NCBI RefSeq assembly: GCF_030345795.1
Contig: NZ_JAUALB010000001.1
Span: forward strand, 3,836,001 to 3,900,000
Reading direction: 5' to 3'
DNA length: 64,000 bases
Source: Micromonospora sp. WMMA1363
Lineage (GTDB): Bacteria > Actinomycetota > Actinomycetes > Mycobacteriales > Micromonosporaceae
Positions 2 through 13,985 of this stretch are shown piece after piece. A model generated the notes under the pieces. The model searched no databases. It was not told the DNA's origin and saw nothing but the letters and a program-made list of their open reading frames with translations. Position 1 is the first letter of the stretch. Each line of letters opens with the position of its first letter. The translations under genes and the position numbers were made by a program.

Positions 2-583
2 ACGGTGGCGCGGTACCTGTTCGCTCTCGGCCGCAAGCGGGTGTTGCCCCCGGCTCTGGGGCGGACCAGCACCCGCACCCGCGCCCCGAAGGTCGGCTCC
101 ATCACGCAGTCCGCGCTCGCCGCGATCGTCCTCGTCGTCTACGCGGCGATGGGCTGGGATCCAATAGTCCACCTGTTCTTCTGGCTCACCGTCGTGGGCG
201 GTCTCGGCGTGCTGATCCTGATGGCCGGCACCTCGGTCGCGGTCATCGCGTACTTCGCCCGCCCGGGGAACCGCGACGGCATCAGCGGGTGGCGGTGGCT
301 CATCGCCCCCGCGCTCGCGTCGGCGGCGCTGCTGTGGATCCTGTGGGCCACCATCGACCAGTTCCACACCCTGCTCGGTGTCGAGGCGACCAACCCGCTG
401 CGGTGGATCTTCCCCGGGGCGTTCGCGGTCGCGGCCGTTCTCGGCGTGCTGTGGGCGCTGGTGCTGCGGGCCGCCAAGCCGGACGTGTACGCCGGCATCG
501 GGCGCGGTGCGAACAGCGTCACCACCGAGGCGGCCGAGGCGCTCGGCCGGACCAACCCGGCGCCGGCTGGGAGCGGGTGGTGA
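2..583 (+). CDS. APC-family amino acid permease, C-terminal part (cut by window edge)
   Basis: The reading frame is open to the left edge, so only the last 193 or so codons are visible. They contain at least four hydrophobic segments. The first visible residues (TVARYLFALGR, then a basic loop) match the cytoplasmic loop between late membrane segments that is typical of APC-superfamily amino acid/polyamine permeases. That family imports or exchanges amino acids across the cytoplasmic membrane. The stop codon lies only two bases before the ATG of the acetyltransferase gene, so this permease is probably transcribed with the following nucleotide-enzyme operon and may supply or export its substrate. 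Substrate is unknown; the family call is from local similarity only. Confidence 0.7.
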   Translation, partial: TVARYLFALGRKRVLPPALGRTSTRTRAPKVGSITQSALAAIVLVVYAAMGWDPIVHLFFWLTVVGGLGVLILMAGTSVAVIAYFARPGNRDGISGWRWLIAPALASAALLWILWATIDQFHTLLGVEATNPLRWIFPGAFAVAAVLGVLWALVLRAAKPDVYAGIGRGANSVTTEAAEALGRTNPAPAGSGW

Positions 584-585
584 CC

Positions 586-1200
586 ATGGCCCCGTTCGCA
601 CCGACGATTCGCCGCGCCACCCCGGCCGAGTCCGACACCGTGGCCGCCGTGCTCGCCGAGGCGTTCCTGCACGGCGACCTCGGCCCCTGGCTGGTCCCCA
701 ACGTCGACACCCGCGAGAAGGTGTACTGGCCGTACTTCCGGCTCCTCACCGAAGGTGCCCAGGCCGCCGGCTGGATCGACGTCACCGACGACCTCGCCGC
801 CGTCGCCCTCTGGTACCCGGTCGGAGACCGGTTCGACGTCGAGATCCCGAACTACGACACCCGCCTCGCGCAGGCGTGCGGCCAGCACCTGCACCGGTTC
901 GTCGCCCTCGACCAGGCGATGCACGAACACCACCCCACCGGTACGCCGCACCACTACCTCGCTCATCTCGGCGTGCACCCGGACCGGCAACGCCAGGGTC
1001 TTGGCAGCGCCCTGCTGGAGCACCACCACACCCAGCTCGACGCCATCGGAATGCCCGCCTATCTGGAGGCCACCAGCAGCCGCCATGGCGTCCTGTACCG
1101 CCGGCATGGCTACCTTCCCCGCCCGGGGTACCGGCTGCCGAAGGGGCCGGAGCTGTACCCGATGTGGCGACGCCCGCGCCCGACCGGGGAGGCGGAATGA
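586..1200 (+). CDS. GNAT-family N-acetyltransferase
   Basis: A 204-residue protein of normal GNAT length. The acetyl-CoA binding motif A is clear: a hydrophobic strand leading to HLGVHPDRQRQGLGSALLEHH (residues about 130-150), matching the family pattern V-x-P-x-x-R/Q-x-x-G-x-G/A. The following LEATSS...LYRRHGY segment is the usual motif B. Such enzymes move an acetyl group from acetyl-CoA to an amine. The ATG at 586 is preferred; a GTG at 580 is possible. The gene begins two bases after the permease stop and its own stop overlaps the next start (ATGA), so it belongs to the operon. The acceptor is unknown; an amino-sugar, amino acid or modified nucleoside would fit the neighbours. Confidence 0.85.
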   Translation: MAPFAPTIRRATPAESDTVAAVLAEAFLHGDLGPWLVPNVDTREKVYWPYFRLLTEGAQAAGWIDVTDDLAAVALWYPVGDRFDVEIPNYDTRLAQACGQHLHRFVALDQAMHEHHPTGTPHHYLAHLGVHPDRQRQGLGSALLEHHHTQLDAIGMPAYLEATSSRHGVLYRRHGYLPRPGYRLPKGPELYPMWRRPRPTGEAE

Positions 1201-2234
1201 GGGTCGGGTATAGCTGCTGGGGGTTCCTCGGCCCCGGGGTGGTGGACACGCCGGACGGGTCGCGGGCCTACCGCCGCCCGCTGATCGACGGGCTTACCGC
1301 CGCCGGGCACGAGGTGGTACTCGTCCAGCGCAACCGGGACCTGGCCGAGGCGGGCCTGGACCTGCGCGGCCAGTACACCTTCGGCGGCCTACCCGACCTC
1401 GACGTGCTGATGCTGGAGTGGCGGTGGCCGCTGCCGGGCCGCAACACCACCCCGTGCGGCACCCCAGGCCACACCTGCGACCTGCACCGGCAAACCGAGC
1501 TGCTGGAGCACTACACCCGCGCGTGCGGCACCCCCACCGTGATCTGGGACCTCGACCGGCAGCTCCCCGCCGACGACCCGCTCCGCGCGCTTCCGAACGT
1601 GACGGTGTGCGAGTTCGCCCTGCACCCGACCCCGGGCGCCACGACCCTGCTGTGCCCGGTGCCGGACACGGCGCTGGACGCCGCCGACCCCGCCGCCCTC
1701 GCCGCGCTGACCCGGCCGCTGTCGCTGGTGTACGTCGGCAACCAGTACGACCGCGACGACGCCTTCGACCGCTACTTCGCCCCGGCCGCGCGCCACGTCG
1801 GGCACCGGGTGGCCGGCAAGTGGCCGCGCACCGAGCGGTGGCCGCACGTCACCTTCACCGGCCGCTGCCCCCTTGCCGAGGTGGCGGCCATCCACCGGCA
1901 GTCCCTCGCGACGGTGCTGCTGCTACCCGAGCGGTACAACGCGGTCGGGCACATGACGTCCCGGCTGTTCGAGGCCCTGCTCGCCGGCTGCCTTCCTCTT
2001 CTGCCGGCCGAGTTCGTGGGCGGGGAGGCGTTCGTGCCGCCGGTGCTGCGCGTCAGCGACGGGGCGGACGTGGTGCAGCGGGTCGAGCAACTGCAACGCA
2101 TGGCCGGCACGACCGAGCACGCGGACCTGATCGCGGCGTGTTTGGGCTTGCTCGAGCCGATGCGGCTGTCCCGGCAGGTCGCCGTCCTCGACGACGTCTT
2201 CACCACCCTGACCAGCCTGAGCCCCCGGAGGTAG
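1197..2234 (+). CDS. glycosyltransferase-like protein (GT-B, CgeB/group 1 style)
   Basis: 345 residues. The N-terminus (GYSCWGFLGPGVVDTPDG) looks like a GT-B N-domain glycine loop, and the C-terminal half carries the features of the nucleotide-sugar binding domain: LVYVGNQYDRDD (about 180-190), a HVTFTGRCPLAEVAAIHRQS stretch, and the RLFEALLAGCLPLLP motif (about 260-275), in which glutamate and the GCLPL turn correspond to the donor-binding E-x7-E region of family 1 and CgeB-like glycosyltransferases. Start overlaps the GNAT stop by four bases. In context it may glycosylate a nucleotide or small product of the neighbouring enzymes. The donor and acceptor cannot be read from sequence. Confidence 0.6.
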   Translation: MRVGYSCWGFLGPGVVDTPDGSRAYRRPLIDGLTAAGHEVVLVQRNRDLAEAGLDLRGQYTFGGLPDLDVLMLEWRWPLPGRNTTPCGTPGHTCDLHRQTELLEHYTRACGTPTVIWDLDRQLPADDPLRALPNVTVCEFALHPTPGATTLLCPVPDTALDAADPAALAALTRPLSLVYVGNQYDRDDAFDRYFAPAARHVGHRVAGKWPRTERWPHVTFTGRCPLAEVAAIHRQSLATVLLLPERYNAVGHMTSRLFEALLAGCLPLLPAEFVGGEAFVPPVLRVSDGADVVQRVEQLQRMAGTTEHADLIAACLGLLEPMRLSRQVAVLDDVFTTLTSLSPRR

Positions 2235-2236
2235 CC

Positions 2237-3262
2237 ATGGTCTACGGCCCCACCTACGACAGCTTCGAGCAGGCGTACCTCGCGGTGCTGCGCACCGTCG
2301 CCCGGCGCCACCAGTACGAGACGAACGGGCGCGGTAAGAAGGCCCGGGAGATCATCAACAGCAGCTTCACGATCACCGACCCAGTTGACCGCACCCCGTA
2401 CCTGGCCGCCCGGCGGACCAACATCGTGTTCAACCACGCCGAGGCGCTGTGGTACCTGACCGGCCGCGACGACCTCGACATGATCGGCTACTACGCGCCG
2501 CGGCTGCGCGACCTCGCCATCGAGGGCCGGCTCACCGGCACCGCCTACGGACCGAGGCTGTTCACCCCGAACGGTCCGGATGGGCGCAGCCAGTTCGACC
2601 GCGTCGTGTCCCTGCTACGCGAGGACCCGGACACCAAACGCGCCGCCATGGTCATCATGCGGCCCGACGAGCTGACCGACCCGACCCACCCGGACGTGGC
2701 CTGCACCCTCGGCCTGCAGTTCCTGCTCCGTGACGGCGCGCTGCACGCCGCCGCCTACATGCGCGGCAACGACGCGGTGATCGGGCTGCTGTGCGACACG
2801 TTCTCGTTCACCTTCCTCCAGGAGTACACGGCCCGCCGCCTCGGCGTCGAGGTCGGCACGTATGCCCACCACGTCGGTTCCATGCACGTCAACCTACTCG
2901 ACCTGGACCGCGTCGATGCGATCCTCGCCGAGGCCGCCGGGCCGACCGCCCGGCCGAGGTTCCCGGTTCCGTCGATGCCGGCCACCAGCCACGACGACCT
3001 TGCCCTGGTCATGGCCTGGGAGGAGAGCCTGCGCACCAACACCCGCCGCCTCGACCCGGTGCGCTTGGACCGTGTCTCGCTGCCGCTGTACTGGCAGCAG
3101 GTACTCGCCCTGTTCGAGGTGTACCGGCAGATCGTCCACGACCCGGACGGCACCGTCGGCCCGGACGCCATGGCCGCGTTGCATCCCGGCCACCGGTGGC
3201 TGGTGGCCCGCCGCTGGCCGGACCGGATGCCCGCCACGATCCGGGCCGGGTGGCCGTCGTGA
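2237..3262 (+). CDS. thymidylate-synthase-like pyrimidine C5 (hydroxy)methyltransferase
   Basis: 341 residues with a thymidylate synthase fold signature. The catalytic cysteine lies in DVACTLGLQF (Cys156), followed by the phosphate-binding region YMRGNDAVIGL. In canonical ThyA the residue eight after the conserved Asp is Asn177, which binds uracil N3/O4; here that place is Asp187 (codon 2795-2797, in LLCDTFSF). Asn-to-Asp at this site is the known signature of cytidylate hydroxymethylases (phage dCMP hydroxymethylase and CMP hydroxymethylases of nucleoside antibiotic clusters). I infer a cytidine-type substrate and a 5-hydroxymethyl product. The gene starts two bases after the previous stop and overlaps the next start (GTGA). 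A housekeeping ThyA role is unlikely given this context. Confidence 0.75.
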   Translation: MVYGPTYDSFEQAYLAVLRTVARRHQYETNGRGKKAREIINSSFTITDPVDRTPYLAARRTNIVFNHAEALWYLTGRDDLDMIGYYAPRLRDLAIEGRLTGTAYGPRLFTPNGPDGRSQFDRVVSLLREDPDTKRAAMVIMRPDELTDPTHPDVACTLGLQFLLRDGALHAAAYMRGNDAVIGLLCDTFSFTFLQEYTARRLGVEVGTYAHHVGSMHVNLLDLDRVDAILAEAAGPTARPRFPVPSMPATSHDDLALVMAWEESLRTNTRRLDPVRLDRVSLPLYWQQVLALFEVYRQIVHDPDGTVGPDAMAALHPGHRWLVARRWPDRMPATIRAGWPS

Positions 3263-3783
3263 CCCCGCCGCCCGGGGTGGACTGGTCGGACTGGACCGTG
3301 ATCATCCTCAAGCCCGACTGCCTGGCCCGTGGCCTGCGTGAACCGGTGCTCGTCTGGGTCCAACGCGAGGTCCAGGTGGTCGACGTCCGCACGGTGTGGC
3401 CCACCGAGGCGCAGATCTTCGTGCACTACTCCGACATGTTGCCGCTGTCCGCGAAGATCGGCCGCGACGTGCCCGCCGAGCTGCGGCGCATCTTCGTCGG
3501 CCAACCCACCGGCCTCGCGCTGGCCTACGGTCCCAACGCCGCACCGAGGCTGCGTGAGCGGCTCGGCCCGACCGACCCGGCCACCGCGCCGGCCGACACC
3601 ATCCGGGGCCGCTTCGGCATCGACAGCCTGCGCGCCGCGATGGCCGAGGGCCGCCTGGTCGACAACCTGATCCACAGCTCCGACACCGTCGAGGTCGTAC
3701 CCCGCGACTTCGGCATCTGGTACGGCCCCGGCGCCGCGCACCTGCTCCGCGCCCCTGCGACCCCTTCCGGAGGTACCCGGTGA
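3259..3783 (+). CDS. nucleoside-diphosphate-kinase-like protein
   Basis: 174 residues with NDK landmarks in order: the start strand TVIILKPDCLARG, the ADTIRGRFG segment that follows a G-P-T-D-P turn, and the active-site region NLIHSSDTVE in which the histidine is kept. Classical NDK (about 135-145 residues) has N-x-x-H-G-S-D; here Gly is Ser, and the protein has an expanded middle, so it is a divergent paralogue. NDKs pass a gamma phosphate through a phosphohistidine to (d)NDPs. Next to a cytidylate-type synthase, it could raise a modified nucleotide to the triphosphate, an inference. Overlaps both neighbours by four bases (GTGA at each end). Confidence 0.75.
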   Translation: MTPPPGVDWSDWTVIILKPDCLARGLREPVLVWVQREVQVVDVRTVWPTEAQIFVHYSDMLPLSAKIGRDVPAELRRIFVGQPTGLALAYGPNAAPRLRERLGPTDPATAPADTIRGRFGIDSLRAAMAEGRLVDNLIHSSDTVEVVPRDFGIWYGPGAAHLLRAPATPSGGTR

Positions 3784-5027
3784 CCAGCACCGCCGCACCG
3801 ACCTTCACGTCCGGCCCCCGGCTGCTGCCGGTCATGCCCGCCGACCAGCAGGCCGACCTGGACCCCTACATGGCGCAGGTCGTCGGCTACCGCAAGTCTG
3901 GGCTGAGCCTCAACCACATCATCGGCTGCCCCCTGGAGTGCGGCTACTGCGTACGGCACTTCTGGGGCAACTTCGAGGTCAAGGTCCCGCACCTGCTGAT
4001 GCCCACCGACGAGGCGATCGACCGGCTCGTCGGACACGAGGCGTTCCGCCCCGACGTCACCCCGATCCAACTGTTCAACAAAGCCACCGACCCGTTCCTG
4101 CCCGGCGTCAAACCGCACCTGTTCCAGGTCCTGCGCGCCATGGACGCGAGCGGCTTCACCAATCACGTCCTGCTGATCACCCGGTTCAAGGTCACCGAGG
4201 CGGACATGGCCGCGCTGGAGAAGCTGCGGCACCTGCGGGTCACGCTGCTGTTCACCTACTCCGGGATCAGCGACCCGCGCGTGGAGCCGATCTCCAAGAG
4301 CGAGATCACGGTGACGTCGATCCGCACCGCCGCCGCGCACAAGCGCCGTACCGGGGTGGTGCTGTACTGGCGGCCGATCGTGCCCGGCTGGAACGACGCC
4401 CCCGACACCATGGCGCACGTGCTCGACATCGGCCGCGATGCCGACGCGATCGTGTTCACCGGCTACTACCACAAGCCCGAGAACGCCGACTACCTGCGCG
4501 GACTCGGCGTGCCCGTGCCGTTCGGGGAGGACTACCACCGGCGCAAGACCATGCCCGCCGACCTCGACGCCGCCGTGGTCGCCGCCTGGCGTGCCTCCGG
4601 GATCAGCACGCCGCTGTTCCGCAAGACGAGCTGCGGCGTCGCCTACGCGCACGAGGTGGCCGACTACAACGGCCACTGGGGCGTGCGCGAGCTGTGCGAC
4701 ATCTGCCCCGCCGCCCAGCAGCGGCGCTGCGCCGACGACCACACCCAACCCACCCCGGCCAGCATGGACCGCATCCTCGGCCAGCTCGGCTACCAGACGC
4801 AGTACGTAATCGAGGACGGCCACGTGTGGACCCACGGCCTCGGCGAGCAGCGCCGCTACGCCATCCAACACGGCCTGCGGTACCAGATCTGGGAACTCGA
4901 CCAGCCCCACCACCTGCACGCCCACGGCCGATCCCTCACCGGACACGGCACCGACGCCACGCAGGTCGAGGCGTTCACGGCGGTGCGCCGGCAGTTCGAG
5001 CAGGAGGCGCGGTATGAAGATGACTGA
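3780..5027 (+). CDS. radical SAM enzyme (spore-photoproduct-lyase-like)
   Basis: 415 residues. The [4Fe-4S]/SAM motif C-x3-C-x2-C is at Cys50, Cys54 and Cys57 (GCPLECGYC), in a (beta/alpha) barrel of about 250 residues. A second group of cysteines follows the barrel at Cys285, Cys306, Cys309 and Cys317, spaced as if to bind an auxiliary cluster or metal. The overall look is closest to the SPL-like radical SAM group that acts on nucleic acid bases, but I cannot fix the subfamily. It is translationally coupled to the NDK-like gene (GTGA) and its end overlaps the exonuclease start by 14 bases. In this operon it is the likely chemistry-defining enzyme acting on a nucleotide. Confidence 0.8.
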   Translation: MTSTAAPTFTSGPRLLPVMPADQQADLDPYMAQVVGYRKSGLSLNHIIGCPLECGYCVRHFWGNFEVKVPHLLMPTDEAIDRLVGHEAFRPDVTPIQLFNKATDPFLPGVKPHLFQVLRAMDASGFTNHVLLITRFKVTEADMAALEKLRHLRVTLLFTYSGISDPRVEPISKSEITVTSIRTAAAHKRRTGVVLYWRPIVPGWNDAPDTMAHVLDIGRDADAIVFTGYYHKPENADYLRGLGVPVPFGEDYHRRKTMPADLDAAVVAAWRASGISTPLFRKTSCGVAYAHEVADYNGHWGVRELCDICPAAQQRRCADDHTQPTPASMDRILGQLGYQTQYVIEDGHVWTHGLGEQRRYAIQHGLRYQIWELDQPHHLHAHGRSLTGHGTDATQVEAFTAVRRQFEQEARYEDD

Positions 5028-5688
5028 CCCCGACACCCGGCAGGACGGACCCGTGACCGGCACCGACGCCTGGCACCAGGCCGACCTCGTCGCCCTGGAC
5101 CTGGAAGGCAGCGGCGCCCAGGACCGCGACCACGAGGCCATCCTGGAGATCGCGCTCGTCCCCCTTGCCGCCGGGCAGCCGGCCCTCGCCGATGCGTACG
5201 CCACCCTGGTCAACCCGGGCCGCCCCATCCCCGCCCGGGCATGGATCGCGCCCGGACTGACCAACGACGTACTCAGCCGCGCCCGGCCGTTGACCGCGAT
5301 CGAGCCCGAGCTGGCCGGCCGCATCACCGGCCGGTGGCTCGTCGGGCACAACATCGGCGTCGACTGGCGCCTGCTGCACCGCCTTTGCCCCTCCATCGCG
5401 CCGGCCGGGCTCATCGACACACTGCGCCTTGCCCGCGCCTGCCGCATCGACGCCGGCGGGAACAGCCTCACCACGCTGCTCGAACACCTCGACCTCACCG
5501 CCACGGTCACCCAGGCGGTGCCCGACGGCCAGCCACACCGAGCCCTGTGGGACGCCACCGGGGCGGCCATCCTCGTTGGCGGCCTCGTCACCCGACGGTG
5601 GCCCGCCGGTGTCGCACTAGCCGGCCTGTGCGCGGTGGCCGCCCTGCCGGACCTCGTACCGACGCAGGCACCGGACACGTTGTTCTGA
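5014..5688 (+). CDS. DnaQ-like 3'-5' exonuclease
   Basis: 224 residues with the DEDDh exonuclease motifs in order: ALDLEGSG (Exo I, Asp and Glu metal ligands, about residue 30), GHNIGVDWRLL (Exo II Asp), and PHRALWDATGA (Exo III His and Asp). These enzymes release nucleoside monophosphates from 3' ends with two metal ions. The final 40 residues are hydrophobic and unlike a polymerase subunit. As the last gene of a tightly overlapping operon of nucleotide enzymes, it may supply NMP substrate from nucleic acid or remove modified residues; this is inference. A housekeeping proofreading role is unlikely here. Confidence 0.8.
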   Translation: MKMTDPDTRQDGPVTGTDAWHQADLVALDLEGSGAQDRDHEAILEIALVPLAAGQPALADAYATLVNPGRPIPARAWIAPGLTNDVLSRARPLTAIEPELAGRITGRWLVGHNIGVDWRLLHRLCPSIAPAGLIDTLRLARACRIDAGGNSLTTLLEHLDLTATVTQAVPDGQPHRALWDATGAAILVGGLVTRRWPAGVALAGLCAVAALPDLVPTQAPDTLF

Positions 5689-5828
5689 CCCCAGCTCAGT
5701 ACGTAGGTCAGCCGAAATGAACCAACCGTGACGCGGCGAGTCGAGTCGCTAGCCGCGGTGTTGACCTGAACAGCGAGAAGGCCGGGCCATCCAACCGGGC
5801 GGCCCAGATGAAAAGGAGAGTGCAACCA

Positions 5829-7070
5829 GTGAGCGTCGACACGGTGAGCGCCGAGGGCCTACATGCCGCCATGGTCGATCAGCTCGTCGCTGATCACGCC
5901 GACAAGGGGCTGACGATGCGGCCCGAGGTGGAGGCGGCCCTTCGCGCCGTCCGCCGCCACCTGTTCACCCCGGATGCGCCGCTGGAGGAGGCGTACCGCG
6001 CCGACCAGGCCGTGATCACCAAGCGACGCGGCGACGAGGCCGTCAGCTCGGTGTCGGCGCCCTGGCTGATCGCGGAGATGCTCGGTCAGGCGGCCGACGC
6101 CGTCGACGGCGGACTACGCGACCGGCACGTGTTGGAGATCGGCTCCGGCGGCTACAACGCGGCGCTGCTGCGCGAGCTGGTCGGGCCGGCGGGCTCGGTC
6201 ACGACCGTGGACATCGACCGCGACGTGACCGACCGGGCCACGGCGTGCCTGGCGGCGGCCGGCTACGACGACGTGACCGTCGTCTGTGCCGACGCCGACC
6301 AGCCGATCGGCCACGACCGCTCCTACGACCTGATCATCGTGACGGTCGGCGCGTGGGACATCCCCCCGGCCTGGACCGGACAGCTCGCCGCGACCGGCAC
6401 CCTGGTCGTGCCGCTGCGCACGTTCGGAATGACCCGCTCGTGGGCGCTGCGCCGGACCGGTAACCGGCTAACCAGCCACAGCCAACGCCTGTGCGGCTTC
6501 GTGTCCATGCAGGGCTCCGGCGCCCACGAGATGCGCTACGTCGACATCGCCGACGGCGTGCACCTGCGGCTGGACGAACTCGGGCAGCAGGTCGATCCGG
6601 AGGCCATCGGCGCGCTGCTGTCGCAACCGCCGGCGCAGGAGTGGGCCGGGGCGAGCCTGCCGCCGCGCACCGTCCTGGCCGACCTCGACCTGTGGCTCGC
6701 GGCGCGCATCACGCAGGCGGGGCAGCAGTTCGTGGTGCTCACCGCCCAGCAGGAGGCCATCGACGCCGGCCTCGTGAACCCGGCGTGGCGCTACGGCACG
6801 CCCGCCGCCCTGCACGACGGCACCTTCAGCTACCGCTCGGCGCTCAAGTGGACGGGCGACCTGTTCGACGTGGGCGCCCGCGCGCACGGCCGCGACGCAG
6901 GCGCGGCGGCCGAACGGATGGTCGAGCACATGCGCGCCTGGCTGGACGCGGGCAGCCCCTCGCCGATGCTGCACGTCCTGCCCGCTGGAACTCCCGACGG
7001 CGACCTGCCGGCCGGGACGGTGCTGGACAAGCGGCACAGCCGCGTCGTCCTCACCTTCAACCCCTCGTAG
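5829..7070 (+). CDS. PIMT-like methyltransferase of FxLD lanthipeptide system
   Basis: 413 residues. The N-terminal half is a protein-L-isoaspartate O-methyltransferase domain: it begins with a PIMT-like substrate region (RRHLFTPDAP, then the AYRADQAVITK stretch) and has the SAM-binding loop VLEIGSGGYNAALL (about residue 100) followed by the acidic VDID strand. The C-terminal half of about 200 residues is the extension seen in FxLD-system methyltransferases. The start GTG at 5829 is chosen because AAGGAG lies 11 bases upstream; an ATG at 5808 lies before that site. Such enzymes O-methylate Asp in RiPP precursors, leading to succinimide or isoaspartate. The precursor gene follows 12 bases later. 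Confidence 0.85.
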   Translation: MSVDTVSAEGLHAAMVDQLVADHADKGLTMRPEVEAALRAVRRHLFTPDAPLEEAYRADQAVITKRRGDEAVSSVSAPWLIAEMLGQAADAVDGGLRDRHVLEIGSGGYNAALLRELVGPAGSVTTVDIDRDVTDRATACLAAAGYDDVTVVCADADQPIGHDRSYDLIIVTVGAWDIPPAWTGQLAATGTLVVPLRTFGMTRSWALRRTGNRLTSHSQRLCGFVSMQGSGAHEMRYVDIADGVHLRLDELGQQVDPEAIGALLSQPPAQEWAGASLPPRTVLADLDLWLAARITQAGQQFVVLTAQQEAIDAGLVNPAWRYGTPAALHDGTFSYRSALKWTGDLFDVGARAHGRDAGAAAERMVEHMRAWLDAGSPSPMLHVLPAGTPDGDLPAGTVLDKRHSRVVLTFNPS

Positions 7071-7082
7071 AAAGGCACGCCC

Positions 7083-7250
7083 ATGAACGAAACGGTCGTC
7101 CCCACGGTCGCCCCTGAGTTCACCCTGGACGTCACCCTCGTCGACGCCGGCCCCGCCGCGACCGGCTACGCCACCGGCACCGACGACAACTGCGGCTCGG
7201 GCAACACGGGCTCCAACGCCTGCACGACCCGCTGCGACGCCGGCAACTGA
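7083..7250 (+). CDS. FxLD-family lanthipeptide precursor peptide
   Basis: 55-residue peptide. The leader has the family-defining FxLD box at residues 13-16 (FTLD). The C-terminal core region (about residues 28-55) is rich in Thr, Ser, Gly and Asn and carries three cysteines at 37, 47 and 51. These allow up to three lanthionine or methyllanthionine rings with the Ser/Thr residues at 31, 33, 39, 42, 44, 48 and 49. Asp34, Asp35 and Asp52 are possible targets of the PIMT-like enzyme encoded just upstream. A good ribosome site (AGAAAGG) precedes the ATG. It sits between the methyltransferase and the LanB gene, with a strong hairpin behind it. Confidence 0.92.
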   Translation: MNETVVPTVAPEFTLDVTLVDAGPAATGYATGTDDNCGSGNTGSNACTTRCDAGN

Positions 7251-7272
7251 CCCGACCGCTCCCCGCACATCC

Positions 7273-7300
7273 AGGCCCGGCGTCGCACGGCGCCGGGCCT
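7273..7300 (+). terminator. hairpin between lanthipeptide precursor and LanB gene
   Basis: A perfect 10-bp stem (AGGCCCGGCG / CGCCGGGCCT, 8-base loop) lies 23 bases after the precursor stop, with no T-run. Such hairpins after RiPP precursor genes usually act as partial terminators or mRNA stabilisers that give excess precursor over enzymes. That function is inferred. Confidence 0.6.
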
Positions 7301-7323
7301 GCCGACCCCCTCGGTGGTGCAGC

Positions 7324-10068
7324 ATGATTCCCGCGCCTGGTGCGGCGCTGATCAGAGTCGCCGCGTACCCGAGCGATCTCAACCTGCCCGGCTGGCCCGA
7401 CCTGGCATCCGACGAACCGGAACAGTGGCGCACCTGGCTGGACACGGTGTGGAAGCTGCCACGGTTCGCGGAGGCCGTCACCTCGGCAGCGCCCGAGCTG
7501 GCCGGGCAGATCGCTCGGGCGGTAGCCGGCGAGCCAATCGCGGAGCAGCGGCTACGCCGCCTCGTCGGAGCAGCGGTCAAGTACCTGCTGCGGTGGACCA
7601 CCCGCGCGACTCCGTTCGGCACGTTCGCCGGGGTCGCCCCGGTCCAGTTCGGTGCCCACGCAGCGGTCCGCCTGGGCGAGGCCCACCACGCGGTCGCCCG
7701 CCCGGACGGAGCATTCATCGCCGAGCACACCGCGCGGGCCGAACAAGACCTCGCCACCCTGCGCACCGTAGAGGTGGTCACGAACTCGCTCGGATTCCAG
7801 CGCGGCGCCACATGGGTGCTCCCATGTGCCCGTGCAGAGGGCGACCGGCGGTGGGACGCCGAGATTCGCCTCACCGGCCCCGTCCAGGCTGCGATCCAGG
7901 CGGCACAGTCGCCGATCGGCTTCGCCGACCTCGCCGCGAAGATCGCCGGTACCGCCGAGGTCGCCGCAGCCGAGCGGCTGCTGGCCGAACTGGTGCAGGT
8001 CGGGGTGCTGCTGTCGGCGCTGCGGCCGGCGATGACGGTCACCGACCCGGCCGCGCACGTAGCCGGCCGCTACGCCGTACCGCATCCCGGCCATCGGATC
8101 GCGGTCGACCTGCGCGCCGACGTCGCGGTGACGCTTCCCCCGGCGGTGCTACGCGAAGCGGGCCGAGCAGCGGCGACGCTGGTAGCAGTGGCGCCACCGC
8201 TGCCTGGGTGGGCCGAGTACCACCGCGCGTTCATCGAGCGGTGGGGTCCGGGAGCGGCCGTGCCGGTCCGCGACGTGCTCAACGTGCTGGGGTACCCAGC
8301 CGGCTACCGAGGATCGACCCGCCGCGCCCCGGCGGGCTTCACGGCCAGGGATCGGCTGCTCGGGCAGCTCGCGCAGCAGGCCGCGCTGGACGGCTGCGCC
8401 GAGGTGGTCCTCGACGACGCGCTGATCGAGCGGCTGCGCGCCGATGACGACCGGCCGCCGGTCCCGCACACCGAACTACGGTTCACCCTCGCCGCCGACA
8501 CGCTTCGGGACCTGGACCGGGGCGCGTTCACCCTGACGGTGCTCAGCGGGTCACGGCACGCCGGGGTTTCCGCCGCCCGGTTCCTGCACCTGCTCACCCC
8601 CGCCGAGTTCGCCTCCTTCCAGCGGATCTACCAGGACTTGCCGACCGCCCAACCGGGTGCGGCCACCGTGCAACTGTCCGGCCCTCCGCTGGACGCCCGC
8701 CTCACGGCGGTGGCCCGCGTACCCGAGCTGCTGCCGGTGCTTCCGCTCGGCGACTATCATCCCGCCCCACCGTGGAGGGTGGAGGATCTGGCCGTGACCG
8801 GCGACGGCGAGCGGCTGTGGCTGGTGTCGCAGAGCAGCGGCCAGCCCGTCGAGCCGCTGTTGTGCAACAGCGTCCTGCTGCCCTCCCTGCAGCAACCGCT
8901 GATGCGGCTCCTCGCCGAAGTCTGGACCGCGTGGAGTGCGCCGTGCAGCCGGTTCGAGTGGGGCCACGCGGCCGGTCTGCCGTTCCTGCCCCGCCTGCGG
9001 CGCGGACGCACCATCGTGCACCCGGCCCGCTGGGTCATCGACCGCGCCGCGCTGCCCGGCCGGACCGCCGGATGGGCGCAGTGGCGCGACGCCTGGCAGC
9101 GGCACCACCGCCAGCGGTATCTTCCGCAGCACGTCCTTCTCGGCGGCGACGACGTGCGGCTGCGCCTCGACCTGGACGAACCCGCGCACCTGGCGGTTCT
9201 GCGCGAGCACCTCGGCCGGCACGCCCGCACCGTGATCACGGAGGCGCCCGGCCCGGCGGGCTGGATCGACAACCGACCGGCCGAGCTGCTGCTCACCCTC
9301 ACCCACCCGGCACCGGCCACCCGGCCAGCTCGACCGGCCCGGCCCGTCTGCACCATCCAGCACCGGCCCGGCCGGTCGCGGTGGCTGGAGGCACGCCTGT
9401 ACGGACGGCTCGATGCCCTCCTGGCCGACCTCGCCGGCCGGCCCGCCGACCACCTATCGGCCGGCTGGTGGTTCGTGCGCTATCCCGACCCCGAGCCCCA
9501 CCTGCGGCTGCGCATCCCGCTTCCGGACGTCGACCGGTTCGCCGAGACCGCGCGCCACCTCGCCGACTGGGTGACCGATCTCCATGACGGCGCCCTCGTA
9601 CACGACTACAGCCTGCACCCCTACCGGCCCGAAACCCGCCACGGCGCCGGGGCCACCCTCGCCGCTGCCGAAGCGGTGTTCGCCGCCGACTCCCGCGCTG
9701 CGATGCGCCGGCTGACCGGTGACCGGCAGGCGGCCACCGCCGCCGGCATGATCGCCATTGCCGACGGGTTCACCGGCGACGGCCTGGGCTGGTTGGCCGC
9801 CCATGTTCCCCAGCTCACCGGTTCCCGCCTGGACACGGCGCAGCTCGACCTCGCCCGAATGCCGTTCCGTGACGAGCAACTGGCCGCAGCGTTGGGCGCC
9901 TATCGGACCTTGGCCGAGAGGGACGGACTCGACCCGGACCGGGTCCTCGGCGACCTGCTGCACCTGCACCACGCCCGGATGATCGGCGTCGACTCCACGT
10001 CGGAGCGGCACTGCCTGCGGCTGGCCCGGACCGTCGCCCGTACCGCGCACGCCCGGCAGGCGGCATGA
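7324..10068 (+). CDS. class I lanthipeptide dehydratase LanB
   Basis: 914 residues. The N-terminal part (about 1-620) is the lantibiotic dehydratase glutamylation domain, including the family signature RWTTRATPFGTFAGV near residue 90-105. The last 260 or so residues are a SpaB-C/thiopeptide-type elimination domain (GWWFVRYPDPEPHLRLRIPL, followed by a helical region). Full-length LanB uses glutamyl-tRNA to glutamylate Ser/Thr in the precursor and then eliminates glutamate to give Dha/Dhb. Its stop overlaps the LanC start (ATGA). A separate protein similar to its C-terminal domain is encoded two genes on, so the elimination domain seems to be present twice. Confidence 0.92.
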   Translation: MIPAPGAALIRVAAYPSDLNLPGWPDLASDEPEQWRTWLDTVWKLPRFAEAVTSAAPELAGQIARAVAGEPIAEQRLRRLVGAAVKYLLRWTTRATPFGTFAGVAPVQFGAHAAVRLGEAHHAVARPDGAFIAEHTARAEQDLATLRTVEVVTNSLGFQRGATWVLPCARAEGDRRWDAEIRLTGPVQAAIQAAQSPIGFADLAAKIAGTAEVAAAERLLAELVQVGVLLSALRPAMTVTDPAAHVAGRYAVPHPGHRIAVDLRADVAVTLPPAVLREAGRAAATLVAVAPPLPGWAEYHRAFIERWGPGAAVPVRDVLNVLGYPAGYRGSTRRAPAGFTARDRLLGQLAQQAALDGCAEVVLDDALIERLRADDDRPPVPHTELRFTLAADTLRDLDRGAFTLTVLSGSRHAGVSAARFLHLLTPAEFASFQRIYQDLPTAQPGAATVQLSGPPLDARLTAVARVPELLPVLPLGDYHPAPPWRVEDLAVTGDGERLWLVSQSSGQPVEPLLCNSVLLPSLQQPLMRLLAEVWTAWSAPCSRFEWGHAAGLPFLPRLRRGRTIVHPARWVIDRAALPGRTAGWAQWRDAWQRHHRQRYLPQHVLLGGDDVRLRLDLDEPAHLAVLREHLGRHARTVITEAPGPAGWIDNRPAELLLTLTHPAPATRPARPARPVCTIQHRPGRSRWLEARLYGRLDALLADLAGRPADHLSAGWWFVRYPDPEPHLRLRIPLPDVDRFAETARHLADWVTDLHDGALVHDYSLHPYRPETRHGAGATLAAAEAVFAADSRAAMRRLTGDRQAATAAGMIAIADGFTGDGLGWLAAHVPQLTGSRLDTAQLDLARMPFRDEQLAAALGAYRTLAERDGLDPDRVLGDLLHLHHARMIGVDSTSERHCLRLARTVARTAHARQAA

Positions 10069-11141
10069 GCGCCGGACAGTCCCTCGCTGACGGTGCGGCT
10101 GGCGTCGCCCTGTTGCACCTGGAGACCGGCAACTGGCCGGCAGCGTGCGAGGCGCTGCGTCAGTCCACGGCCGGGGGCGTCAGCATCGCGGACGGTGCGA
10201 GCCTGTTCTATGGCGCCCCCGCGCTCGCGTTCGTCCTCGCCGCCACCGACCAGCCAGGGCTCGCGCAGGCCAGGGCGATCACCGCCGAGGGCACCGTCAC
10301 GGTGACCCGCCACCGGCTCGACGCCGCGCACCGCCGCATCGACCGCAACGAGCAGCCGCACTTCGCCGAGTACGACCTGATCCGCGGGCTGACCGGCCTC
10401 GGCGTTGCGCTGCGCAGGCTGGGCGATAACGACCCGCTCCGCGAGGTGCTGGACTACCTCGTCCGGCTGACCGAGCCGCGAGGCTCCCTGCCCGGCTGGT
10501 GGTGCTGGAACGGCCCCGAGCGCCAGCAGGCGGCGCCGATCGGCGGCCACGCCAACCACGGCATCGCCCACGGCATCACCGGCCCGCTCGCGCTGCTCGC
10601 CCTCACGATGCGCGACCGCATCACGGTCGACGGGCACGCCGAGGCGATCACCCGGATCTGCGAGTGGCTAGACACTTGGCAGCAGCAGACGAACGGCACG
10701 ACCTGGTGGCCGCAGACCGTCACCCTCACCGACCTACGGCGCGGCGCCCCAGCGCAGCAAGCCCCGCTACGGCCATCCTGGTGCTACGGCACCCCCGGCA
10801 TCGCCCGCGCCCAACAGCTCGCCGCGCAGGCCCTGCGCGACACCCAACGGCAGCACCTCGCCGAGGTCGCCTTCGCCGGCTGCGTCACCGACCCGGCGCA
10901 GATCGAGCTGCTCAGCGAGCACGGGCTGTGCCACGGCACTGCCGGGCTTCTGGCCACCGCCCGGCGCATCGCCGCCGATGCGCTCACCCCGACACCACTC
11001 GCCGCTATCGAAGACCTCCACCGGCAGGTCATCCCGGGTACCGACGTACCCGAGGGGCTGCTCGTCGGCACCACCGGAGCCGATCTCGCCGCCGTCGCCA
11101 GCACCGCAACCTCCTGGGACGCCTGCCTCCTGCTCGCCTGA
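10065..11141 (+). CDS. lanthionine synthetase C-like cyclase LanC
   Basis: 358 residues, slightly short for LanC (about 400). The zinc ligands are in place: Cys240 in SWCYGTPG, and Cys289-His290 in GLCHGTAG; the catalytic-type His lies in HGIAHGITGP. LanC binds zinc, activates precursor cysteine thiols and adds them to Dha/Dhb, forming lanthionine rings. It is translationally coupled to LanB by an ATGA overlap. Expected to act in the cytosol on the FxLD precursor. Confidence 0.9.
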   Translation: MSAGQSLADGAAGVALLHLETGNWPAACEALRQSTAGGVSIADGASLFYGAPALAFVLAATDQPGLAQARAITAEGTVTVTRHRLDAAHRRIDRNEQPHFAEYDLIRGLTGLGVALRRLGDNDPLREVLDYLVRLTEPRGSLPGWWCWNGPERQQAAPIGGHANHGIAHGITGPLALLALTMRDRITVDGHAEAITRICEWLDTWQQQTNGTTWWPQTVTLTDLRRGAPAQQAPLRPSWCYGTPGIARAQQLAAQALRDTQRQHLAEVAFAGCVTDPAQIELLSEHGLCHGTAGLLATARRIAADALTPTPLAAIEDLHRQVIPGTDVPEGLLVGTTGADLAAVASTATSWDACLLLA

Positions 11142-11155
11142 CGAAAGGGTCCGCC

Positions 11156-11947
11156 GTGGATGACAGCCCCTGGCAACAGATCAACATCAGCTACCCCGGC
11201 GATACCCCGCAGGAACGCGAGCAGCGCGCGGTCGACCACCTCGGACGGGTGCTTCCCGCTGCCGAGGCTGCCGGGCTGATCACCTCGTGGTGGGTCATCC
11301 GCAAAGGCGCCTGGCGGGTCCGCTACCTGCCCACCGGGCAGCAGCGCAGCCGAGAACGAGCACGCGAGCTGATCACCGACGGGGTGAGCTGGACCCCCGA
11401 CATCTACGAATCCGAGACGCACGCCTTCGGCGGCGTGGACGCCATGTCCGCCGCGCACGCACTGTTCCACCACGACAGCCGCCACCTCCTCGCCTACCTC
11501 CACCGGCACCCGACCGATCGCCGGGAACGCTCGCTCGTTCTGTGCACCGCGCTCATGCGTGCGGCAGCGCTCGACCTCAACGAGCAGGGCGACGTCTGGG
11601 CACGAGTCGTCCAGCACCGCGCCGGCCACCTGCCGCCCGTCCCCGACCACCGCACGTGGGAAGGCTTCACCGACAACGTTCGCCACCTGCTCACCGGCAC
11701 CGCCCGCACGACCGACGACTGGTACGCCGCTTTTGCCGACGCCGGCACGAGTCTCCAACGCCTACGCGAGACCGGCCGTCTCACCCGTGGACTCCGTGCC
11801 GTCATCGCACTCCACGTGATCTTCCACTGGAATCGGTTCGGGCTGTCCGCCCCCACCCAAGCCACCCTCGCGCAGGCGGCCACCGAAGCGATCTTCGGCG
11901 CCGCCCCCACTCCATCGGGCCGGCACGCGCCAGCGGTGAGCACCTGA
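11156..11947 (+). CDS. thiopeptide-type bacteriocin biosynthesis domain protein (stand-alone SpaB-C-like)
   Basis: 263 residues. The beginning (WQQINISYPG, then VLPAAEAAGLITSWWVIRKGAWRVRYLP) is typical of the stand-alone thiopeptide biosynthesis domain found beside LanB genes; this domain is related to the glutamate-elimination half of LanB. The rest is helical with HHDSRHLLAYL and later HVIFHWNRFGL. Starts 14 bases after LanC with AAAGG as ribosome site. Because LanB already has a C-terminal copy, this one could be a second elimination enzyme with another substrate site, or a partner; which one is unknown. Confidence 0.8.
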   Translation: MDDSPWQQINISYPGDTPQEREQRAVDHLGRVLPAAEAAGLITSWWVIRKGAWRVRYLPTGQQRSRERARELITDGVSWTPDIYESETHAFGGVDAMSAAHALFHHDSRHLLAYLHRHPTDRRERSLVLCTALMRAAALDLNEQGDVWARVVQHRAGHLPPVPDHRTWEGFTDNVRHLLTGTARTTDDWYAAFADAGTSLQRLRETGRLTRGLRAVIALHVIFHWNRFGLSAPTQATLAQAATEAIFGAAPTPSGRHAPAVST

Positions 11948-12011
11948 ACTCGCCTGCGAGGTTGCTCCGTTGCAGGACTCCGGGCTCCGCTGACGACAAG
12001 GAGTGTTCTTC

Positions 12012-13985
12012 GTGCCAACGCCCCGCACCAACAACGCCGGTCCCGACGATCCCGCGCCCGTGAACGTCCCTCGCCAGGCCAGCCGCGCCGCCGACGCCTC
12101 CGTGCTGCCGGAACTGCGCAGCATGTGGTGGGAGACCGGCATCCGGGCACGCGCGGAAACCGGGCTGCTCGGGGTGTTTGCCGAACTACCCGGCCTGGTC
12201 GCCGAGGCGCTCCGGATCAGTTGGCGCGCCGATCGAACCCGTACCTCGGTCGTCGCCGTGGCGACCGTCGGCGCGGCCGTGATGTCCACGCTCGGGCTCC
12301 TCGCCACTCAGCGGGTGCTGATCGAGCTGTTCGCTGGCGGCCCGACCCCGCAAAAGGTATGGGCGGCAGCGCCCGCGCTGGCGGCCCTGGCGGCGGCCAT
12401 CGCCGTACGCGCCGGTGCCGGCATCGCCACCGGGTACGCGCTCAACGGACTGACCCCCAGAGTCAACCAGCAGGTAGAGCGGGTCCTCTTCGAGGTCACC
12501 ACCGCCGTGCGCCTCGACGCGTTCGACGAGGACGCGTTCGCCGACGACATGGAACGCGCCTCGCGCGGCAACGAATCCGTGGTCGAGCTGGTGCAGGGCT
12601 CGATGAATCTCCTCGCGGGCCTCGCCGGGCTACTGGCCGTCACCGTGGCGGTCGTGGTGATCCACCCGCTGCTGCTCGTCGCCCTGCTGGTCGCCACCAT
12701 CCCGAACGCCTGGGCATCGCTGCGCGCCGGCCACCTGCGATACCAAACGTTCCTGGCCGGCTCCGTGCGCCGCCGCCGACGCTGGCTACTGCACCGACTC
12801 ATGGCCGAGCGATACTCCGCCGCCGAGCTGCGCTCCTACGGGCTCCGGCGGTTCCTCCTCGACCAGTACGACCGCGTCATGGGCGCCGAAACCGACGTCC
12901 AGCTCGCCCTGGCCCACCGGGTCACCACGACCACCAGCATCGGCTCGGTGATCAGCGGACTCGCCACCGGCGGCGTCTACGTGCTACTCGGCGCGCTGCT
13001 GCTGGACGGGCAGATCCCGCTCGCCGCCGCAGCCACCTGCGTGATCGCCGTGCAGGCCGCCCAGCGGGCACTATCCACCGTCACGCTGCACATCGACCGG
13101 GTGTTCACCGAGGGCCAGCACTTCGCCGACTACACCGGCTTCATGAGCCGCGCCGCCGACTACCTACCCGCCGACACCGATCCAGCCGTGGCCACCGAGG
13201 CCGCCCCGCTCGCCGAACTGGCCGTCAAGGGCGCCACCCTGACCTATCCGGACCGCGACACCCCGGCCGTCGCCGGTGTCGCCCTGACCATCGAGAAGGG
13301 GCAGACCGTCGCGTTCGTCGGCGAGAACGGCTCCGGCAAGACCACCCTCGCTGCCATGATCGCCGGACTGCGCACCCCCAGCGCCGGGACCATCACCTGG
13401 AACGGCCAGCCGCTGCACGACTACGACCAGCCCTCGCTAAGAGCGCGGATCGCCGTCGTGACGCAGGAGTACCACAAGTGGCCCTTCACCGCCGCCACGA
13501 ACATCGCCCTCGGCGACGCCGACGGCGAACCCGACTCAAACCGGATCCAGGCCGCCGCCGTCCGCGCGGTGGCCCACGGCATGATCACCGAACTGCCGGA
13601 CGGCTACGAGACCCTGCTCGACCGGACGTTCGCCGGTGGGCAGGACCTCTCCGGCGGGCAATGGCAGCGCATCACCGCCGCTCGAGGCTTCTACCGCACC
13701 GCAGACCTGCTCATCATGGACGAGCCGTCCTCAGCCCTCGACCCGCGCGCAGAGGACGCCCTGTTCCAAGCCATCCGGGACCGGCAAGGCCGGGCCACCA
13801 CCATCCTGATCACCCACCGGCTCGCCAACGTCCGCCACGCCGACCGGATCTTCGTTCTGCACCACGGGCACCTGATGGAGGCCGGCAGCCACGACGAACT
13901 CATCGCGGCCGACGGCCTCTACGCCGAGCTGTACAACCTCCAGGCCGCGGGCTACCACGGCTCGGCCGAAGAAGCGGACAAATGA
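12012..13985 (+). CDS. ABC exporter with fused membrane and ATPase domains
   Basis: 657 residues. The N-terminal 330 residues hold about six membrane segments (first near 75-100). The ATPase domain has Walker A VGENGSGKTT, signature LSGGQWQRI, Walker B LLIMDEPSSALD and an H-loop in ILITHRL. This is the half-transporter arrangement that works as a homodimer and exports peptides or lipids. There is no N-terminal C39 peptidase, so leader removal must be done by another protein. Start GTG 12012 is chosen because AAGGAG ends about 8 bases upstream; a GTG at 12003 lies inside that site. As the last gene of the lanthipeptide cluster, it probably exports the product or gives self-protection. Confidence 0.88.
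   Translation: MPTPRTNNAGPDDPAPVNVPRQASRAADASVLPELRSMWWETGIRARAETGLLGVFAELPGLVAEALRISWRADRTRTSVVAVATVGAAVMSTLGLLATQRVLIELFAGGPTPQKVWAAAPALAALAAAIAVRAGAGIATGYALNGLTPRVNQQVERVLFEVTTAVRLDAFDEDAFADDMERASRGNESVVELVQGSMNLLAGLAGLLAVTVAVVVIHPLLLVALLVATIPNAWASLRAGHLRYQTFLAGSVRRRRRWLLHRLMAERYSAAELRSYGLRRFLLDQYDRVMGAETDVQLALAHRVTTTTSIGSVISGLATGGVYVLLGALLLDGQIPLAAAATCVIAVQAAQRALSTVTLHIDRVFTEGQHFADYTGFMSRAADYLPADTDPAVATEAAPLAELAVKGATLTYPDRDTPAVAGVALTIEKGQTVAFVGENGSGKTTLAAMIAGLRTPSAGTITWNGQPLHDYDQPSLRARIAVVTQEYHKWPFTAATNIALGDADGEPDSNRIQAAAVRAVAHGMITELPDGYETLLDRTFAGGQDLSGGQWQRITAARGFYRTADLLIMDEPSSALDPRAEDALFQAIRDRQGRATTILITHRLANVRHADRIFVLHHGHLMEAGSHDELIAADGLYAELYNLQAAGYHGSAEEADK

Follow-up and report, generated by a model that had tools for sequence, protein, structure and literature searches.

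Positions 2-5688 of a 64,000-nucleotide stretch of the Micromonospora sp. WMMA1363 genome (G000:C1:3836001-3900000; hereafter the window) encode an operon whose nucleotide-acting core recurs across Actinobacteria. The core comprises a MilA-like cytidine monophosphate (CMP) 5-hydroxymethylase-type protein of the thymidylate-synthase fold (ThyA-like), a nucleoside diphosphate kinase-like protein (NDK), a radical S-adenosylmethionine enzyme (rSAM), a DEDDh 3'-5' exonuclease and, in part of the loci, a GT-B glycosyltransferase (GT); the APC-family permease, the GNAT acetyltransferase and the FxLD lanthipeptide genes found beside it in the window are not core components. We tentatively read this gene set, with somewhat less than even confidence, as an accessory system that makes a modified cytidine nucleotide and protects its host by excision, its target being phages or competitors. 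Each enzyme is of a known fold or family, and the set relates to known radical SAM nucleotide-analogue pathways.

The seven genes of the operon lie on the + strand, and their order, spacing and junctions are those reported in a preliminary description of this DNA. The operon begins with the C-terminal 193 amino acids of the permease (2-583), which is cut by the window edge, and with the GNAT gene (586-1200; PF13508, E 5e-9, above cut-off), both accessory, followed by the genes for GT (1197-2234), the ThyA-like protein (2237-3262), NDK (3259-3783; PF00334, E 5.5e-15, above cut-off), rSAM (3780-5027) and the exonuclease (5014-5688; PF00929, E 5e-8, above cut-off). Consecutive genes overlap by 4 bases at 1197, 3259 and 3780 and by 14 bases at 5014, and are 2 bases apart at 583/586 and 2234/2237; other possible starts are GTG 577 for GNAT and GTG 3250 for NDK. 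No promoter-like site was found, and one terminator-like site against 1.0 expected.

Recurrence of the gene set was assessed in 56 actinobacterial loci (given L-numbers) obtained by using a ThyA-like protein alignment to scan genome contigs, the window being counted apart; a gene was scored if present anywhere in the fetched stretch, and genes outside annotated records were called with our own codon model. rSAM is present in 41 of these loci, NDK in 39 and the exonuclease in 38, all three occurring together in 37; GT is found in 20, of which 19 also have rSAM, an aldo/keto reductase (AKR) in 12 and a P-loop AAA_28 gene in five. Loci in which all of these genes were called have them in the order (GT)-ThyA-NDK-rSAM-exonuclease, which recurs in several actinobacterial families. 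The genes thus do occur together, as had been proposed, rather than as scattered homologues. No exonuclease was called in L034 (a short contig end), L048 or L056, and no separate NDK in L026 or L034. The distances of the core genes are correlated in all ten pairs (Mantel r 0.52-0.88, none of 500 permutations reaching the observed value for any pair), and the neighbours vary, with 34 different genes upstream and 39 different genes downstream among 45 loci. Since the order recurs across families and the core distances correlate while the flanks change, the association goes beyond chance. Correlations are higher within than between two sets (0.78-0.88 among ThyA, NDK and GT; 0.84 for rSAM with the exonuclease; 0.52-0.75 across), which hints at two sub-modules. 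The distribution is patchy: rSAM matches at E 1e-20 or better were found in 13 of 151 genomes of the genus, which include all seven with a strong operon-type ThyA; in a sample of the phylum, one of 396 genomes has rSAM, the window's own.

Candidate gene fusions were seen for ThyA-NDK (P0072, which stops within NDK) and NDK-rSAM (P0228); an apparent rSAM-exonuclease fusion in L056 was discarded, its tail being out of frame. A second copy of the operon on contig C11 of the window's assembly G000 (L091, 3 kb) was likewise set aside as a probable assembly chimera because pieces of NDK and rSAM lie in several frames behind an FtsK-type ATPase-like stretch.

The closest match of the ThyA-like protein is the CMP 5-hydroxymethylase MilA (PDB 5jnh, E 2e-83), to which it is homologous over nearly its full length, against E 7e-14 for the best thymidylate synthase. 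According to the MilA report, the preference of that enzyme for CMP is set by two positions (a K133/A176-type pocket), and its Tyr218 hydrogen-bonds the 2'-OH (PMC5175136). At both preference positions the operon proteins resemble MilA, with a Lys at one and a small residue at the other: K134 is found in all 44 operon rows of the alignment, and position 177 is G or A in all 44, never S. The two differ at the Tyr218-equivalent column, which reads N in 36, G in six and A in two of the 44 rows, and the sugar pocket is, judging from these columns, changed or opened relative to that of MilA. Together these features support an enzyme of the CMP-hydroxymethylase type with a predicted conversion of CMP to 5-hydroxymethyl-CMP (hmCMP). 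An ordinary thymidylate synthase was rejected, in keeping with the earlier suggestion that the protein acts on cytidylate: K134 and G/A177 stand in place of Arg and Ser, the protein matches six NCBIfam models, in every case below cut-off (it does exceed the cut-off of the superfamily-wide Pfam model PF00303), and ThyX is encoded elsewhere in the genome, so that the ThyA-like protein would not be the sole thymidylate synthase.

In a phylogenetic tree, the window protein is nearest to Salinispora and Micromonospora ThyA-like proteins, and the operon rows separate (95/92) from rows linked to MilB-like genes; MilA itself is not in this tree. MilB-like genes, defined as encoding proteins of the nucleoside 2-deoxyribosyltransferase family (PF05014), occur in 12 loci, all of them among the 15 without rSAM, and in none of the 41 with rSAM; in the operon, ThyA is followed by NDK and rSAM. 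A mildiomycin/bacimethrin-type pathway, with its MilB-type hmCMP N-glycosidase, was rejected on these grounds, and the parallel drawn earlier with nucleoside antibiotics does not hold for the mildiomycin type. A second ThyA-like family of about 36-40% identity, with a deoxy-type R/S pocket, was encountered in L008-L015, L022 and L060; it sits between NAD-epimerase and carbamoyltransferase genes and looks like part of another modified-nucleotide pathway. In Amycolatopsis palatopharyngis (L060, 5323-12239), two ThyA genes, one of them of the operon type, lie close to the GT gene at a locus devoid of an rSAM gene.

The K, R, N, H, S and D residues of the NDK catalytic motif are invariant in 43 of 43 copies, consistent with the phosphorylating role predicted for this protein; a strong NDK is also encoded elsewhere in the genome. 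GT scores 22.9 bits against PF13524, just under the 25-bit cut-off, and its best fold match in the PDB is, by a narrow margin, T4 DNA beta-glucosyltransferase (BGT). On the strength of this model-based match GT would have a BGT fold and a putative 5-hydroxymethylcytosine glucosylation activity, other GT-B families being possible. The glycosylation step put forward in the preliminary description is thus favoured, narrowly, by the likeness of GT to an enzyme that glucosylates 5-hydroxymethylcytosine. Within residues 87-99 of GT (window 1455-1493), a loop modelled with lower confidence (pLDDT 78-82), C87, H92, C94 and H97 are invariant in the family and point to a metal site. As to kinases acting on monophosphates, the place of AAA_28 is taken in a genus relative (L100) by a thymidylate kinase (PF02223, E 5e-29), which suggests that AAA_28 acts as a nucleoside monophosphate kinase. 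AAA_28 was not found in the window's genome, in a search that had no positive control, and a cytidylate kinase match among the neighbours could not be traced to any locus by motif.

No model in Pfam or NCBIfam recognises the rSAM protein, whose identity rests on a CPLECGYC motif (Cys 50/54/57), on its predicted fold and on relatives annotated as such. It has additional Cys residues at 285, 306, 309 and 317. A profile search of the PDB returned no match at a useful E-value. The Foldseek list obtained with its predicted structure is headed by the pyruvate formate-lyase (PFL) activase, and spore photoproduct lyase (SPL) is not within its first 50 entries. The profile search of the PDB did not bring up SPL by sequence either, and the C-terminal part of rSAM is Cys-rich; on structural grounds, assignment to other radical SAM families is possible. 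Viperin matches the predicted fold more poorly still than SPL, and no PADLOC model matches the rSAM sequence.

The D-x-E and H-x4-D motifs of the exonuclease are present in 39 of 39 actinobacterial copies, and in the aligned alphaproteobacterial copies the middle Asp reads E. Clients of the sliding clamp can end in a Q-x-x-L-F-like peptide. A C-terminal Qxx[LMF][FWL] motif is carried by 28 of 52 members of the exonuclease family, the tail of the window copy not fitting it; in another set, such tails were found in 22 of 43 exonucleases versus 5 of 821 other genes, and the same clamp-type tail also matches 5 of 43 NDK proteins. About half of the exonuclease family may thus possibly be tethered to the replication clamp.

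Relatives of the core are also found on mobile elements. Matches to rSAM occur in 39 plasmid records, from Streptomyces, Nocardia, alphaproteobacteria and Nostoc; in 23 of these records the match extends over 80 percent of the rSAM length. The four Streptomyces plasmids examined carry ThyA-NDK-rSAM-Exo-AAA_28-AKR, and seven alphaproteobacterial plasmid loci a reduced core, rSAM-Exo-AAA_28, devoid of ThyA, NDK and GT and followed by an HD gene (L085, L086, L096, L098), AKR (L084), a WYL-domain gene (L083) or none of these (L097). In Nostoc, rSAM is followed by AAA_28. Of the 24 plasmid records with at least 44 percent identity to rSAM, 23 are also among the 38 records matching AAA_28, 14 of which lie outside the best 30 of the 39 rSAM matches. 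A scan of IMG/VR with a single query sequence yielded no relatives; with an alignment as query, 42 candidate stretches gave nine contigs with relatives, seven of them carrying ThyA-NDK-rSAM-Exo. One of the nine (L105) is apparently the same contig as L052, being equal in length and having an identical ThyA, and L106 displays ThyA-NDK-rSAM-Exo-AAA_28-AKR-GT in one run, with GT at the opposite end. A Streptomyces anthocyanicus plasmid (L092, 1429-7367) has an aldolase, an EPSP-synthase/MurA-like protein and a divergent rSAM ahead of exonuclease-AAA_28-AKR, a gene set that we take to be reminiscent of nikkomycin/polyoxin enolpyruvyl chemistry.

The surroundings of the plasmid modules are suggestive of a role in defence. 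Ten neighbours at four of the seven alphaproteobacterial loci were picked for names suggesting defence and scanned with PADLOC; nine matched, a HEPN/Toprim protein being the tenth. CBASS effector, cyclase and E1-E2 genes lie about 0.8 kb upstream of the module in Sinorhizobium meliloti (L086), SduA (Shedu) and QatC near that of S. chiapasense (L098), LmuA and LmuB (Lamassu) near that of Rhizobium (L096), and a dGTPase and ThsB near that of Agrobacterium vitis (L083). L085 has, by annotation, an N-6 DNA methylase, and genes of the toxin-antitoxin, helicase or a similar kind are present at L084 and L097. In control stretches, one displaced 21 kb segment from each of the same seven plasmids, compared by name only, the sole candidates for defence genes were those for a VapC toxin and for a helicase family protein. 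Because these relatives of the core sit among known anti-virus genes, the system is a possible weapon, based on nucleotides and hitherto undescribed. Among the neighbours in Actinobacteria, 120 of 201 (36 loci) match 66 PADLOC families, the matches listed (25 of the 66 families) including type IIG enzyme, type I methylase, LmuA, LmuC and dGTPase models, and 120 of the 181 neighbours of 15 other actinobacterial loci account for nine families, SduA among them; these counts are suggestive only, as one protein can match many families. The window itself gives no such sign, none of ten neighbours (seven upstream and three further downstream of the operon) matching PADLOC, which slightly weakens the reading of the operon as a weapon and slightly raises that of a secreted antibiotic. 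Of the six window proteins scanned, rSAM, ThyA-like, NDK, GT and GNAT had no match, and those of the exonuclease, to a generic DEDDh model and to part of PDC-S48, do not amount to a known anti-phage system. The anti-phage function entertained earlier as an alternative is thus favoured by the related plasmid modules (4 of 7 loci) and gets no support from the surroundings of the operon itself.

From the enzyme families, their catalytic residues and their co-inheritance we infer the following order of reactions. The ThyA-like enzyme would act on CMP, or on a CMP with an altered sugar, and place a hydroxymethyl group on C5; conversion of the product to the triphosphate would fall to NDK and a nucleoside monophosphate kinase (perhaps AAA_28 where present, otherwise a host enzyme); rSAM would alter the nucleotide or its sugar; and GT, where present, would add a sugar, perhaps onto the 5-hydroxymethyl group. 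The product would be a nucleotide analogue that, once used by a polymerase, disrupts nucleic-acid synthesis in an invader or competitor, and the DEDDh exonuclease would cut the analogue out of the host's own strands. A precedent is the viral 3'-5' exonuclease reported to remove ddhCMP, the product of viperin (PMC9415739); the 4'-thiothymidine cluster, described below, is another. HD genes adjoin some of the modules, L050 and L051 have NUDIX genes, and L099 has a MazG-like gene (Pfam match below cut-off); such neighbours would fit protection from a harmful triphosphate. A bolder version, amounting to a new class of immunity based on nucleotides and regarded by us as rather unlikely in its entirety, is that a non-viperin rSAM makes an antiviral nucleotide, that an often clamp-tethered exonuclease edits it from host DNA, and that Actinobacteria added T4-like hydroxymethylation and glucosylation against phages.

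The chemistry just proposed is shared by a rival explanation, that of a small secreted nucleoside antibiotic with the APC permease as its exporter and the exonuclease, HD, NUDIX or MazG-like proteins conferring self-resistance; the difference lies in whether the product leaves the cell. We consider it a plausible but doubtful contender. The 4'-thiothymidine cluster thmA-C offers a parallel, with an rSAM, a nucleoside kinase and a protective triphosphatase amid varying flanks, although, as described, it has no hydroxymethylase, GT or exonuclease (PMC12691670; ThmA was compared by description only). Related MilA-type genes do cluster with MilB-like genes, but no rSAM locus has one; the patchy spread, plasmids included, and the window's lack of defence neighbours would suit an antibiotic, whereas the plasmid modules next to defence genes would not. 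The permease and GNAT genes lie directly upstream of the operon in the window, in two Salinispora loci and in Micromonospora thermarum, but a permease is present in just 4 of the 56 loci. Alternatively, a nucleotide made on infection might serve as a signal that activates another effector, in line with the plasmid modules, whose nucleotide-acting enzymes have CBASS and ThsB genes nearby; given that no one flanking gene travels with the module, we deem this very improbable.

A further reading is that a mobile element hypermodifies its own DNA or RNA, making 5-hydroxymethylcytosine nucleotides that are glucosylated after incorporation, as phage T4 does. The operon suggests the same pair of activities as T4 dCMP hydroxymethylase and BGT, a hydroxymethylase and a BGT-like GT, accompanied by a kinase; the genes occur on plasmids and viral-classed contigs, the exonucleases have clamp-like tails, and phages commonly carry thymidylate-synthase-fold genes (1,529 records match ThyA-like, all at less than 60% identity). 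It differs from T4 in its rSAM and exonuclease, in a pocket whose residues favour ribo-CMP and in GT being found in just 19 of the 41 rSAM loci and not in the other 22; wholesale DNA modification is made less likely by this pocket and the frequent absence of GT. The operon also has no polymerase gene, and no match to rSAM or GT was found in 50,697 phage records. We therefore hold hypermodification to be improbable. Still less credit is given to a clean-up pathway in which a repair-type rSAM, the exonuclease and the kinases would recycle lesions from nucleic acid, as this leaves the CMP hydroxymethylase and GT unexplained and the operon is too patchily distributed for housekeeping. Among known systems, viperin and prokaryotic viperins resemble the operon in tying an rSAM to a nucleotide kinase and to a possible antiviral nucleotide. 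A literature search, aimed only in part at the operon and with subscription journals largely outside its reach, found among the hits listed no description of this combination of enzymes, of opened-pocket MilA relatives or of the rSAM-exonuclease-AAA_28 core. If correct, the reading of the operon as a source of a modified cytidine nucleotide would add a nucleotide-analogue pathway that protects its host by excision, a CMP hydroxymethylase subfamily with an opened sugar pocket and a source of new cytidine analogues. The enzymes lend themselves to assay, with one likely substrate (CMP) and mass shifts of +30 for hydroxymethyl and +162 for hexose.

Acetylation, envisaged earlier as a possible step of the system, and transport are not core functions: GNAT and the permease occur in the same four of the 56 loci, immediately ahead of the operon in L024, L025 and L028 and separate from it in L033. 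The permease fragment of the window alone has no useful Pfam or NCBIfam match, and its full-length Salinispora homologue matches AA_permease_2 (PF13520, E 1e-20). The FxLD lanthipeptide cluster downstream of the operon (5808-13985) includes, by model, a methyltransferase (TIGR04364) and a precursor (TIGR04363; 7083-7250), and its LanB-, LanC- and ABC-transporter-like genes were assigned by reading only. The methyltransferase is found in 3 of the 56 loci plus the window, and the cluster was accordingly rejected as part of the system, the association raised in the preliminary description being that of an occasional neighbour. Parafrankia L029 has the methyltransferase without a precursor or LanB in its locus map, and the precursor clusters with the operon only in the window, L024 and L025.

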